A stretch of DNA of 43,127 bases from Candidatus Aegiribacteria sp. Its GTDB lineage: Bacteria > Fermentibacterota > Fermentibacteria > Fermentibacterales > JCC-6. The notes under the pieces are model-generated. The model did no database searches, had not been told where the DNA came from, and worked only from the letters and a program-made list of their open reading frames with translations. This document shows positions 20,448 to 26,267 of the stretch, piece by piece. The translations under genes were made by a program, and so were the position numbers. Position 1 is the stretch's first letter, and every line of letters begins with the position of its first letter. The stretch covers positions 1-43,127 of the forward strand of contig JAUWMQ010000007.1 of assembly GCA_030613065.1 (NCBI GenBank), read 5' to 3'.

Positions 20448-21053
20448 GTGTATAGTATTGCACAGAAAGTTACTAGCAGGATATATGGCAAAGGTCGGGG
20501 TTGGTGCTTTACTCCAAGTGTATTCTTCGATCTCGGTAGTCCCGAAAACATCAGGAAAATTCTCTCTCGATTAGTGATGAGAAAAACCATCCGTAGACTG
20601 GCACAAGGTATATTTGATTATCCGAGAAAACACCCAGCATTAGGTTATCTTCCACCAAAGCCTACTGATGTTGCGCAAGCGCTTGCGAGCAGAGATACAT
20701 GCAATTTTCAGCCTTCAGGAGCTACCGCAGCGAACATATTGGGACTGAGTGAGCAGGTACCCGCTAGAGCTTTATTCTATACAGATGGGCCATCGCGTAA
20801 GGTGATCATCAATGGTAGGGAAATAATCATGCGGAAAACAACACCAAAGAAAATGATATGTGCTGGGAAAATAAGCGGGACGGTGATCAGCGCGCTTAAG
20901 TTTCTCGGACGAAATAATGTGAGTGAATGGCAACTTAAACATCTACGGAAGATTCTACCACAAGAGGAAAAACAGCAATTACTTAAAGATAAGATATTCG
21001 CGCCTGAATGGATAAGACCCCTACTGGAGAGGATTGCTGAACAAGGAACATGA
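20448..21053 (+). CDS. abiEi: AbiEi-type antitoxin (DUF6088)
   Basis: 201 residues of the DUF6088 branch of AbiEi-like antitoxins: SIAQKVTSRIYGKGRGWCFT, the winged-helix part ending GIFDYPRKHPALG, FQPSGATAANILGLSEQVPA, then FYTDGPSRKVIINGREI. Type IV antitoxins of this class repress their operon through the N-terminal winged helix. The start is GTG 20448, with GGAGAG 7 bases upstream; no ATG fits. The end overlaps the toxin start by ATGA, so translation is coupled. The operator palindrome is 20 bases upstream. Confidence 0.9.
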   Translation: MYSIAQKVTSRIYGKGRGWCFTPSVFFDLGSPENIRKILSRLVMRKTIRRLAQGIFDYPRKHPALGYLPPKPTDVAQALASRDTCNFQPSGATAANILGLSEQVPARALFYTDGPSRKVIINGREIIMRKTTPKKMICAGKISGTVISALKFLGRNNVSEWQLKHLRKILPQEEKQQLLKDKIFAPEWIRPLLERIAEQGT

Positions 21054-22078
21054 TTAAGTTTGCGTCTCTTTCACAGCGTGACAGGAATCCATACTTCGAG
21101 GAAGTTGCCAGTCGTCGTGGTATTACACCTTTGATTGTAGAAAAGGATTTCTGGGTTTCCTTTCTTCTCAGAATGATATTTGATCTAAACGAGACTCGGA
21201 ATATCCTGTTTTTCAAGGGAGGAACTTCCCTCTCAAAGGTTTATGGTGTTATCAACCGCTTCTCTGAAGATGTTGATCTCTCGCTTGACCCGGAATGGCT
21301 TGGATTTAGAGGAGATAACAGTCCCACATCCGCTCCATCCCGTTCACAGTTTCTAAAAAGGCTCTCAACTCTTAATAATGTTTGTGCCGAAAAGGTCGAG
21401 AATACGTTGGTACCTCTCCTTGAGATCGAAATCAGGAAGTTGATAGGGGATCCTCCATTCTCCGGAAATTGTATGAATTTTCTACTCGATGAAAGAACGA
21501 AGTCACCCGTGATTCACGTTAAATATCCGACAGATAGAGAATCGGGAGCAGGTTTGATTAGGCCGGAGGTGAAGTTGGAACTAGGCTCACTCACTGATCA
21601 GAGCCCAACAGAGTACCGCAATATCTCGTCCTGGGTAGCAGAGGAATTTCCCAGTGTTATCCATGATCCAAGCTTTGCTGTTGTAGTACTGATTGCAGAA
21701 CGTACATTCTGGGAAAAGGTGACTATTCTGCATGCTGAGTCCAACAGACCAATGAGATCTCCAATGCGCAGGAATCTCTCTCGAGATTTCTATGATGTAT
21801 GGTCGATATCCAGAAGTGAGATTGGCAGAAGCGCACTGGAAGACAGAGCTTTACTTGCAAGAGTCGTGGAATACAAGAAGACCTATTATTACTCGAGCTG
21901 GGCAAGTTATGAAACTGCGAAGCCTGGCACGCTCAGACTATTGCCAAATGAGCAACGCATTCGAGAGCTTCGCTCTGATTACATTAGAATGAGAGAGATG
22001 TTCTTCGAGGAACCACCCAGCTTTGAGGATCTAATGACCGGGATATCCAGCTTACAGGATATGATAAACAGTGATTAA
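21050..22078 (+). CDS. abiEii: AbiEii-type nucleotidyltransferase toxin
   Basis: 342 residues of the AbiEii/AbiGii (DUF1814) family. Motif I FKGGTSLSKVYGVI, motif II RFSEDVDLSLD, and the later motifs FWEKVTILHAES and LSRDFYDVWSI are all present, so the enzyme looks intact. Family members transfer nucleotides, in studied cases to tRNA 3' ends, and block growth or phage. Overlaps abiEi by four bases. The gene is followed by about 75 bases, then by the hairpin repeat at 22155 and HTH copies 3 and 4. Confidence 0.92.
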   Translation: MIKFASLSQRDRNPYFEEVASRRGITPLIVEKDFWVSFLLRMIFDLNETRNILFFKGGTSLSKVYGVINRFSEDVDLSLDPEWLGFRGDNSPTSAPSRSQFLKRLSTLNNVCAEKVENTLVPLLEIEIRKLIGDPPFSGNCMNFLLDERTKSPVIHVKYPTDRESGAGLIRPEVKLELGSLTDQSPTEYRNISSWVAEEFPSVIHDPSFAVVVLIAERTFWEKVTILHAESNRPMRSPMRRNLSRDFYDVWSISRSEIGRSALEDRALLARVVEYKKTYYYSSWASYETAKPGTLRLLPNEQRIRELRSDYIRMREMFFEEPPSFEDLMTGISSLQDMINSD

Positions 22079-22982: not shown

Positions 22983-24407
22983 TTAGCGATACCTTGTGTC
23001 AACAACATGGCCTCTTCTACTATAGCAGTTATTTCCGTATTTATCCTTGTGCTTTCTCAAAGCAGTATTTCTCACAGAGTGAGGAAACCGGCGACCACAT
23101 GAGTAACATTCGATGATGTATACTCGGCTCTGATTTCCTTGTGCCCTAGAAGCTCGTGATCTTCCAGATGATCGAGAAGAAGTTCTTGCAGTATCGCCAT
23201 CGGTTGTTGGGGGAATACCAATAGTTCCTCTTTGGCTAAATTCGATAATATTTCTTGGATTAAAAGGTCTCTTCGAAACAGTAGCTTTCAGAAGACGATC
23301 TACTCTATAAGTTCTGTAACCGTCACTGCTCTTGTCATATGCGTGAAGGATGATGTTACCGTCCTTTGTGCGTCTAAATGCATATGGTTCAATATCTCTA
23401 TATACATCCTGACCATTTGGCTTCATGTAATGTATTTTTACTAGAAGCCTATTCGCTCCAGCAAAACGGATTGGCTCAAGGGGTGTTTGTGTTCCCAAAG
23501 TATATAGGATTTGAGGTGGTGTCCAATCCACATCCTCGTTTGGTCCCATCGGCAGCGCAGCCAGAATCCTTGGTTCAACTCTACCTTCAAGCCACTCAAA
23601 GAACTCCTGCATTCCTGTTAAATAGGCAGGATAAGGTGGGAGAGTATGTAATTGGTGTCCAAGCATATTCTCCCACTCAGATTCAAGTTCGGGGAAGAAA
23701 ATAGAAGATAATATCTGATTATACGTAGGTACTGGTACGCCCTTTGATTCACATTTTCTCGAAAGAGTCTTGTATACTAATCTAGGAGCATTGCGAAGGG
23801 TAGAGTTTCTATGAATGCTAACAACATCATAAAGATCTCTTGGTCGACACCTTTCACCTAGAGCACGGATTTTCTCTGCGAATAGCTCTTCGAATGAATA
23901 AGATCTTACGCCTGTCCTGCCTGGGAGTTCATCACTGAATGGATGGCGAATCCTTTGAATTACAGGAGGACGTGCAACTTTTTCTTTTGAATCCAAATCA
24001 ATCTTTACTTTGGCGTATGATCGACTCTGAAGTGGTCCTCGATAGTATATCCTACCTTCGGCTGATGTGGAGGAAGGTCTAAGTTTGTAAAAGACATCCT
24101 TGCCGGAGAAGTCAATTCCAGACTTATCGTAGACATTCTCCAATACATCTTTAATGAGGGGTACTACATCATCTGAACTAATACCTCTAGATGGCAATAC
24201 GGTGAAGTCCAGGTCTTCAGAGAATCGATAAGTTTCGAAATAACACTTCTTTAGGCAGGTTCCTCCTTTGAATACCCAGGAATCTCGGAGTATCTGATTA
24301 CTGCTTATACCCCAAAGCAGCCAACCGATTACATAGTCTTTCTCAACTACAGTCGCACGAAGTCCCCATTCAACCGATAAATTCGCTATTTCGGACTTAG
24401 GGATCAT
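22983..24407 (-). CDS. AbiEii-type toxin fused to WYL-like and zinc-finger-like domains
   Basis: 474 residues. Residues 1-~280 are an AbiEii nucleotidyltransferase: VFKGGTCLKKCYFETYRFSE followed by DLDFTV (motifs I and II) and FAEKIRALGERCRPRDLYDV. Residues ~318-388 match a WYL ligand-sensing domain: RLLVKIHYMKPNGQ, EPYAFRRTKDGNIILHAYDK and GYRTYRVDRLLKATVS. After a Ser/Arg-rich linker, residues 430-474 contain CYSCGRRFPH…LRKHKDKYGNNC, a possible zinc finger. AbiEii toxins are usually ~280-340 residues. It is preceded at one base by the AbiEi gene, same strand. The toxin call is firm, the WYL call good, the zinc call tentative. Confidence 0.88.
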   Translation of the reverse strand: MIPKSEIANLSVEWGLRATVVEKDYVIGWLLWGISSNQILRDSWVFKGGTCLKKCYFETYRFSEDLDFTVLPSRGISSDDVVPLIKDVLENVYDKSGIDFSGKDVFYKLRPSSTSAEGRIYYRGPLQSRSYAKVKIDLDSKEKVARPPVIQRIRHPFSDELPGRTGVRSYSFEELFAEKIRALGERCRPRDLYDVVSIHRNSTLRNAPRLVYKTLSRKCESKGVPVPTYNQILSSIFFPELESEWENMLGHQLHTLPPYPAYLTGMQEFFEWLEGRVEPRILAALPMGPNEDVDWTPPQILYTLGTQTPLEPIRFAGANRLLVKIHYMKPNGQDVYRDIEPYAFRRTKDGNIILHAYDKSSDGYRTYRVDRLLKATVSKRPFNPRNIIEFSQRGTIGIPPTTDGDTARTSSRSSGRSRASRAQGNQSRVYIIECYSCGRRFPHSVRNTALRKHKDKYGNNCYSRRGHVVDTRYR

Positions 24408-24408
24408 C

Positions 24409-25239
24409 TTATGGAATATCGGATGAGAGGGTGGAATTTATCTCTAGCATCCATCTTCTTGTAAGTATGCCCTTCTTGGCAATAGATGGATCGAGACGAG
24501 AGTATCCTGCACTAATATTCATCATGCAAAAAGAGAGCACATCAGGAGCGTCGAGATGACAATGCTCAATAATATACCCCAGCCTTTTACACACTGTTCT
24601 ATTACCCCAGTTTCTCAATATCTCAATAATAGCAGTTTCGTCCTTGTAGTCACCTGAAAGGAGCTCAGAGGCAATTTGTGATATATGCTTAATACCACCA
24701 CCAAGCTCTGGCTTATCAAGAATATCCACAAGCGTCCTAGCTGGATTAGAAACAGCTACTCTTTCACTCTCTCTCCAAACTTGGACTGTATTCGAAATAA
24801 GATCTGATGGAATCGTCACTACTAAATATTTAGTATTTTTGACTTCGTGCTTTCGGTAACGAGTATCCAAGGATGTAAATACTACGATATCACGGAATAT
24901 TTGTTCAGTAAGTCCCCAATGTTCGGCGGCACTCCAACCACCAATGTAGCAGGGAGAAAAGAGCTTCTTAGCTATTAACCACGGATCAACTACCCATTTA
25001 CTTGGATTGATGGCATCAAGCGGTACTGTGATGTATACACCACGCCTTATTCTTGAGAGCCATCCTCTTGCTGCCCAATATGCTAGAAGCCTATTTGTTC
25101 GATTCGATGGTAACGCAAGGCATTCTGCTGCTTCTCGGGATGAAAACGGGCTTTGAAAGGTACGATGTAGTCGAGAGAGTAGCGCCCTGTGGTCTTTTGA
25201 GATTCCTCTTGGTTGGGATATGGTATAATTGCTATGCAT
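24409..25239 (-). CDS. AbiEi-type antitoxin (operon 2)
   Basis: 276 residues. The N-terminal winged helix (FSSREAAECLALPSNRTNRL, YWAARGWLSRIRRGVYITVP) and the C-terminal AbiEi part (YIGGWSAAEHWGLTEQ; SNPARTLVDILDKPELGGG) match the classic AbiEi antitoxin, a different branch from the DUF6088 antitoxin of operon 1. ATG 25239 is chosen because GAGG lies 9 bases upstream and the earlier in-frame ATGs lie inside the operator palindrome. It ends one base before the toxin gene. It represses its own promoter, if the family rule holds. Confidence 0.88.
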   Translation of the reverse strand: MHSNYTISQPRGISKDHRALLSRLHRTFQSPFSSREAAECLALPSNRTNRLLAYWAARGWLSRIRRGVYITVPLDAINPSKWVVDPWLIAKKLFSPCYIGGWSAAEHWGLTEQIFRDIVVFTSLDTRYRKHEVKNTKYLVVTIPSDLISNTVQVWRESERVAVSNPARTLVDILDKPELGGGIKHISQIASELLSGDYKDETAIIEILRNWGNRTVCKRLGYIIEHCHLDAPDVLSFCMMNISAGYSRLDPSIAKKGILTRRWMLEINSTLSSDIP

Positions 25240-25246
25240 AAGTTTC

Positions 25247-25299
25247 ATCCTCATTGAAACAAGATGAGGATATATATACCACCAATGAAAAATATGCAA
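25247..25299 (-). promoter_or_regulatory. Promoter and inverted repeat of AbiE operon 2
   Basis: On the minus strand: -35 TTGCAT (25299-25294), 17-base spacer, -10 TATATA (25276-25271). A perfect 8-bp inverted repeat ATCCTCAT / ATGAGGAT (25247-25254, 25264-25271) lies at the expected transcription start. Same promoter hexamers and spacing as operon 1, but a different operator sequence. Confidence 0.65.
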
Positions 25300-25363: not shown

Positions 25364-25439
25364 TGGCGCCTCGACGAGGACTTGAACCTCGGACCTAGTG
25401 GTTAACAGCCACCCGCTCTACCAACTGAGCTATCGAGGC
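25364..25439 (-). tRNA. tRNA-Asn (GTT)
   Basis: A complete cloverleaf on the reverse strand: acceptor GCCTCGA / TCGAGGC, D-arm GCTC AGTTGGTA GAGC, anticodon arm GGTGG CTGTTAA CCACT (anticodon GTT), T-arm CGAGG TTCAAGT CCTCG, discriminator G, and encoded CCA. Its 3' end is the right copy of the 13-bp repeat that bounds the accessory island, so it has probably served as an integration target. Confidence 0.96.
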
Positions 25440-25499: not shown

Positions 25500-25830
25500 G
25501 GTAAAGCGTATCTGTCATGATACGGCTTACTTTATCAGATATCACTGGAACCACTATAGTTCAGCATTATGGTTGATACAACAGTAACGAGTGTTAAAAG
25601 TTAAGACCTGACCCAGGCTGAGATCCCTGCTTAAGCAGAGGGCTTGTCAATTAAAAACGAAACCGTATAATACCTGAAGCTTTTAAAAAACAGGTATTTT
25701 AGAAGCAAGTTACTGTCATTTGTTCACTGTGTACTGAAGAGGTTGCGACATTTCTGAATCATATCGGTTTCTCACATTCCATCGCTTTCATCGCATGGGT
25801 GAAAATATTAATAAGAATACATTTATTTTC
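25500..25830. other. Non-coding stretch with one palindrome
   Basis: No credible gene. CCCTGCTTAAGCAGAGGG at 25625-25642 contains the perfect 12-bp palindrome CTGCTTAAGCAG and could be an operator or hairpin. The promoter of the RNA-binding protein gene should lie in the right part, but I see no convincing -35/-10 pair. Confidence 0.35.
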
Positions 25831-25938
25831 TGCTGCGATTCTGCAGCACGGTTCCGGGCCGTATCCCGGTTAAGCACGACCCCTGCTACAGGGGCAACTG
25901 CGGCATGGTGCCGCATGGTACTAAGGGACGAAGGTCCC
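25831..25938 (+). promoter_or_regulatory. Structured 5' leader: five tandem hairpins
   Basis: Five perfect stem-loops follow each other in 108 bases just before the RRM gene: TGCTGC/GCAGCA (25831-25848), CCGGG/CCCGG (25854-25869), CCCCTG/CAGGGG (25880-25894), TGCGGCA/TGCCGCA (25899-25915) and GGGAC/GTCCC (25925-25938). The ribosome site AGGAG (25945-25949) follows directly. Known RNA-binding-protein and cold-shock genes often have regulatory leaders; here autoregulation by the RRM protein or temperature sensing is an inference. It could also be a small RNA. Confidence 0.7.
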
Positions 25939-25954
25939 GGGAACAGGAGTTCTA

Positions 25955-26215
25955 ATGAGTAGAAAATTATTTGTTGGTGGATTAGCCTGGGCAACAAACG
26001 ATGAAAGTCTGAAGAAGGCTTTCGATGAATTTGGTGTTATTGAAGAGGCTAACGTTGTCTGTGAAAGAGACTCAGGCCGTTCAAGAGGCTTCGGCTTTGT
26101 AACCTTCGAAACTGCTGAGAGCGCAAAGGCAGCTCAGGAAGCAATGCACGGACAGGAAATAGACGGACGCCAGCTCAGAGTGGATTTTGCTAACAGCAAA
26201 CCAAGAGAGAACTAG
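25955..26215 (+). CDS. RRM-domain RNA-binding protein
   Basis: 86 residues, a single RNA-recognition motif with RNP2 (KLFVGGLAWA, residues 4-13) and RNP1 (RGFGFVTF, residues ~44-51). It ends NSKPREN without the glycine-rich tail seen in many cyanobacterial Rbp proteins. It binds single-stranded RNA, often as a chaperone or cold-response protein. AGGAG lies 5 bases before the ATG. A T-tailed hairpin at 26239 ends the transcript, so this is a single-gene unit with a highly structured leader. Confidence 0.94.
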   Translation: MSRKLFVGGLAWATNDESLKKAFDEFGVIEEANVVCERDSGRSRGFGFVTFETAESAKAAQEAMHGQEIDGRQLRVDFANSKPREN

Positions 26216-26238: not shown

Positions 26239-26267
26239 AGGGGAGGCATTTCTGTCTCCCCTTTTTT
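26239..26267 (+). terminator. Rho-independent terminator of the RRM gene
   Basis: Stem AGGGGAG (26239-26245) / CTCCCCT (26256-26262) followed by six T's. It lies between the RRM gene and the convergent glutaminyl cyclase gene. Confidence 0.9.

Follow-up and report, generated by a model that had tools for sequence, protein, structure and literature searches.

Locus and transcription unit

The window, i.e. the whole 43,127-nucleotide stretch of DNA analysed here, stems from a genome that, among named organisms, is closest to the metagenome-assembled Candidatus Aegiribacteria and Fermentibacteria. On its forward strand it carries a gene for an 86-aa single-RRM protein (25955..26215, +; PF00076, E 5.1e-23), one of three related RRM genes in the source genome, and the orthologues of this protein within the genus are 84–92% identical. 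The start codon is preceded by a Shine-Dalgarno (SD) sequence, GGAG (25946..25949, +), that is invariant in the alignment. Further upstream, a sigma70-type promoter, TTGTCA-16-TATAAT (25644..25671, +), was recognized by 11 of 12 consensus matches. Both hexamers are kept in the orthologues, 263–283 nt 5′ of the start codon, and similar promoters are found 210–290 nt before the start codon in most RRM paralogues and in other families of the phylum. Transcription is accordingly predicted to start at about 25678, some 275 nt upstream of the start codon, which would give a leader of ~277 nt. Provided that this conserved promoter is used, the whole hairpin array described below would lie within the 5′ UTR. 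The first-pass annotation had named a transcript starting downstream of 25915 as a refutation; such a start is unsupported, as the conserved promoter at 25644–25671, from which the start is predicted, places all of the array in the transcript.

The 5′ part of the leader is conserved as well (25731..25775, +), with the core GTACTGAAGAGGTTnCGnCATTTCTGA, and this block is kept in the orthologues and in several paralogues. Among the leaders of the genus clade (clade A) it reads GTACTGAAGAGGTTnCGnCATTTC. Leaders of a second paralogue group and of other families likewise show a conserved 5′ block, GATTCAGTGTCTTT..TTGGTCAGGTTC, at +3 to +40. On the other side of the RRM gene, an intrinsic-terminator-like hairpin (26239..26262, +), made up of a 10-bp stem and a T run behind it, suggests that the gene is transcribed on its own. 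In the wider surroundings, reading frames at 21050–22078 (+) and 22983–25299 (−) resemble AbiEii-type nucleotidyltransferase toxins, one of them with an AbiEi-like partner, as judged by eye from the translations; a tRNA-Asn gene (25364–25439) lies beside them.

Five hairpins in tandem before the ribosome site

The array was first noticed as five perfect stems of 5–7 bp within 108 bases before the ribosome site of an RRM gene, and this description is confirmed: at 25831–25938, stems of 6, 5, 6, 7 and 5 bp stand end to end, directly 5′ of the GGAG and the ATG. Hairpin 1 (25831..25848, +) has a 6-bp stem, TGCTGC/GCAGCA, with pairs that are altered on both sides in homologues. Hairpin 2 (25849..25878, +) is built on the 5-bp stem CCGGG/CCCGG at 25854–25869, which can be extended by outer pairs (25849–25853/25873–25878); its inner stem is invariant within the genus clade, and both sides are altered relative to the paralogue leaders. 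Hairpin 3 (25880..25894, +; CCCCTG/CAGGGG, 6 bp) shows a compensatory change from U-A to C-G in homologues, and hairpin 4 (25900..25914, +; GCGGCA/TGCCGC, 6 bp, or 7 bp with a flanking T-A pair) a change from G-C to A-U in one leader, L037. Hairpin 5 (25925..25938, +; GGGAC/GTCCC, 5 bp) ends 16 nt 5′ of the start codon. Every clade A leader has this hairpin, and it recurs in the second paralogue group, where its letters differ; wherever hairpin 5 is the last stem detected, its distance to the start codon is 14–16 nt.

The density of stems is well above chance, as had been supposed. Dinucleotide shuffles contain on average 0.72 non-overlapping perfect stems of at least 5 bp, and none out of 2000 reaches the observed five; no other site in the 43-kb window holds even four such stems in 124 nt. 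Sampling of 307 kb from the same genome, window included, revealed one further five-stem cluster (L173:17031–17146), which leaves the present array as the only one ahead of a known gene start in this ~307-kb sample of the Fermentibacterota genome. A relative (G001) was examined over 395 kb; only two five-stem clusters were found there, and both are leaders of RRM paralogues. The folding energy of the segment as a whole is moderately low (z −2.2), because much of the signal resides in the tandem arrangement. Three paralogue leaders (L055, L057, L059) carry a tandem duplicate of hairpin 4, with GCGGCATAAGCCGC occurring twice; the array has thus grown by whole hairpins.

Conservation and covariation in the Fermentibacterota

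A DNA search in the relatives identified the leader 5′ of eight orthologues and also 5′ of paralogues, where most matches are reduced to the hairpin part (25831–25960). Alignment of the genus clade gave standard pairs in 95.9% of the pair cells, with four pairs altered on both sides. This level of covariation is matched by 8 of 500 shuffles, and less than 47% of the cells pair when the partner is slid. The modest covariation within clade A alone is a consequence of the closeness of the sequences. The second paralogue group, aligned independently and by sequence only, is 97.4% paired with four double-change pairs (1 of 500 shuffles), and, like the leaders of RRM genes in other families, it retains the five-hairpin plan with stem sequences nearly unrelated to those of the first group. 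Compensatory changes, whose absence had been named as a refutation, are thus present in the genus clade and, independently, in the second paralogue group. When the clades were joined, 93.6% of the cells paired and double changes occurred at 30 of 32 pairs, in an alignment that was fitted to the structure and is hence biased towards it. RNAalifold predicts five corresponding hairpins in the second paralogue group and a sixth one upstream. It also proposes a long-range helix, TCCAT/ATGGA, that would enclose the five hairpins and cover the ribosome site in L003, L066–L068 and L023–L027; this helix is absent from L019 and L065.

Two covariance models, R1 from the first group and R2 from the second paralogue group, were used for further searches. 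Across 42 whole genomes of the phylum, R1 gave 23 matches, every one of them directly 5′ of an RRM gene. Its matches extend to the second group and to some leaders of other families, with a constant position relative to the start codon, and in the other families L015 and L071 ranked above weak background matches. Conversely, R2 recovers the first group including the array in the window (E 0.0014), and it detects leaders of other families with E values of 7e-16 (L078), 1e-10 (L077), 1e-9 (L018) and 4e-6 (L015), as against a single weak match in ~500 kb of background. The mean number of hairpins per leader is 4.1, 4.9, 3.6 and 3.1 by group, as compared to 0.7–0.9 in shuffles. Judged by these alignments, the array is evolutionarily real, with helices that are kept while their letters change. 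The suggestion of a new structured RNA motif gains support from the compensatory changes, the kept architecture, the RRM-only association and the lack of a relevant Rfam match to the window and related leaders. The computational analysis thus shows that the array exists, that it is conserved and linked exclusively to RRM genes, and that it is situated in a long 5′ UTR.

The distribution has clear limits. RRM leaders of a sister genus (g5) are without the array, with 0.80 stems vs. 0.66 in shuffles, and all 61 RRM leaders from outside the phylum hold fewer than four stems (mean 1.16 vs. 0.73 in shuffles). The array is therefore no general need of RRM genes. The RRM leaders of g5 (L084, L083, L081, L030, L031, L032) have a different conserved leader in the last ~95 nt before the ATG. 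A variable hairpin comes first in it, and just 5′ of AAAGGG there is a likely H-type pseudoknot (GGGCTTC..GAAGATT, TGTCGTC..GATGACA). In its alignment, 90.1% of the cells pair and 12 pairs show double changes, a level attained by 0 of 500 shuffles, and scans of three loci provided no relevant Rfam match.

Established regulatory devices

Several familiar types of leader were compared with the array. The predicted energy of each hairpin at 37 °C is −8 to −10 kcal/mol, and all are predicted to be still folded at 70 °C. The SD sequence in the window has a predicted exposure of 0.95–1.0 between 10 and 37 °C, and there is no consistent temperature trend across homologues. An RNA thermometer, in which a helix hides the ribosome site and opens within the range of growth temperatures, does not fit an exposed SD sequence and hairpins of this predicted stability. 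In this sense, the temperature-responsive leader proposed in the first-pass annotation is disfavoured.

The loops of the hairpins in the window are GATTCT, CCGTAT, CTA, TGG and GAAG. No loop or linker motif is common to the hairpins of one leader, and no loop 4-mer occurs in three or more hairpins of any leader. A binding array of the CsrA/Rsm type, defined by a series of hairpins whose loops contain GGA, does not match these loops, which are free of GGA and have no 4-mer common to three or more of them. The proposal of an autoregulatory binding array consequently has to be divided: autoregulation is plausible, as inferred below, and a series of identical sites is disfavoured by the lack of a common loop or linker motif. 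Intrinsic attenuation, which depends on a terminator hairpin and U tract within the leader, was rejected as well, since the + strand from 25678 to 25954 lacks any terminator-like site. The same applies to attenuation by a leader peptide (uORF), as ATG-started ORFs are constant neither in frame nor in extent and several homologues lack the ATG at about −40. Finally, the hairpins are unrelated to one another and do not form a repeat or REP array.

Function of the leader

RRM proteins are the commonest RNA-binding proteins of eukaryotes, and to our knowledge little is known about the control of RRM genes in bacteria. The leader probably sets the amount of RRM protein made. Because the helices are kept, no motif is common to them and hairpin 5 lies near the start codon, selection acts on the helices and on how they are packed beside the ribosome site. 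We tentatively attribute to the array the role of a cis-acting structured leader on which the RRM protein feeds back, in the manner of Csp proteins. Over its last ~125 nt, the leader would form five hairpins that are closely spaced and independent of one another, a fold supported by the covariation. The RRM protein would bind or open this hairpin-packed leader of its own mRNA, and translation or stability of the mRNA would be altered, so that the level of RRM protein could follow how much structured RNA the cell contains. As the helices are kept while loop and stem letters change, the quantity sensed would probably be structure itself and not a repeated sequence motif.

The exclusive linkage to RRM genes suggests a control that is tied to the encoded protein; we infer the RRM protein as ligand, and likewise the direction of the effect. 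Hfq is absent from all 42 phylum genomes and CSD proteins were found in 3 of 42, although absence is approximate in these incomplete genomes; RRM proteins may therefore be the main small RNA chaperones here. It counts against feedback that RRM domains usually bind single-stranded RNA and that the hairpins have no common loop or linker motif that could identify an RRM site. A precedent for feedback may be seen in Bacteroides RbpB, with its CLIP-seq site in rbpB mRNA (PMC11697453).

The main competitor is a passive leader, with hairpins that block ribonucleases at the 5′ end, form a standby platform by the ribosome site, or both, resulting in a stable, well-translated mRNA for an abundant protein, without feedback. 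Conservation of structure rather than sequence agrees with such a role, as do the very high predicted stability of the hairpins, the end of hairpin 5, which at about 14–16 nt from the start codon lies where the ribosome footprint begins, and a strong consensus promoter. However, other abundant proteins would benefit from the same arrangement and no other five-stem leader was found in ~700 kb of two genomes; the exclusive linkage to RRM genes again suggests a tie to the protein. We consider the passive leader rather unlikely and favour feedback, although the data do not decide between the two.

The remaining readings carry less weight. A cold-shock leader in the manner of cspA, where the long 5′ UTR rearranges with temperature and RRM synthesis is thereby increased in the cold, would account for the length of the conserved 5′ UTR and its conserved 5′ block, and RRM genes may replace missing CspA-type genes; yet with hairpins stable to 70 °C or above and a predicted ribosome-site exposure that does not change consistently with temperature, it is improbable. 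The hairpins could also serve as platform for another factor that regulates the RRM gene, such as RNase III, an sRNA partner or another RRM paralogue. Since one genome can hold several RRM paralogues whose leaders are related, cross-regulation would be feasible, but no specific partner is indicated and the loops lack a common motif, which makes this reading slightly more improbable still. Palindromic repeats or chance, i.e. no functional RNA at all, can be put forward on account of the one hairpin that is tandemly duplicated in three paralogue leaders. This is very hard to reconcile with the shuffle statistics (0 of 2000), with hairpins that are not copies of one another, and with an architecture that is kept across families with compensatory changes.

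Returning to feedback, a wider and distinctly more speculative proposal, which we regard as unlikely in this full form, is a phylum-wide class of autoregulatory leaders that regulate by hairpin structure as such: by way of some five hairpins of free sequence, an RRM chaperone would gauge how heavily bacteria without Hfq and mostly without CspA-type proteins are loaded with structured RNA. With an RRM-only leader of conserved architecture in a phylum without Hfq, possible RRM autoregulation becomes open to testing, and similar arrays that were overlooked by sequence-based motif searches become worth seeking.

Comparison with known RNAs

Rfam scans of the window and related leaders gave no relevant match. 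In E. coli, the small RNA chaperone gene cspA has a 5′ UTR that is long and structured; the present leader is likewise long and structured, but the domain encoded by cspA is CSD, not RRM, and the likeness is a general one with no homology claimed. In cyanobacteria, the cold-regulated rbp genes also encode a small single-RRM protein and have conserved 5′ UTR elements linked to the cold response (PMC9333190). These elements are described as conserved boxes, and the comparison with the five-hairpin leader is by description alone. RbpB of Bacteroides is an RRM protein with a site in its own mRNA, which implies possible autoregulation; it reportedly prefers AU-rich sequence, and a five-hairpin leader for rbpB is not reported in the passages of PMC11697453 that were consulted.

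The Chlorobi-RRM motif (RF01697) is a structured RNA of RRM genes that has been listed as likely cis-regulatory (Weinberg 2010, PMC2864571). Like the five-hairpin leader, it is a conserved structured RNA tied to the RRM genes of one phylum, in its case Chlorobi of the FCB group, and the position upstream of an RRM gene that characterizes it is shared by all 23 R1 matches (23/23). Its model, however, comprises 73 positions, belongs to a different phylum and matches no leader here. With the membership cut-off of 45 bits to the family covariance model, no match was found in the 42 phylum genomes, in line with negative scans of the window; two weak matches lie on contigs other than those carrying RRM genes. 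Chlorobi-RRM is thus the closest known kind, and the five-hairpin leader is not a member of it. The leader is a new RNA of the same functional kind as Chlorobi-RRM, unusual in that it keeps its tandem-hairpin plan and not its sequence.
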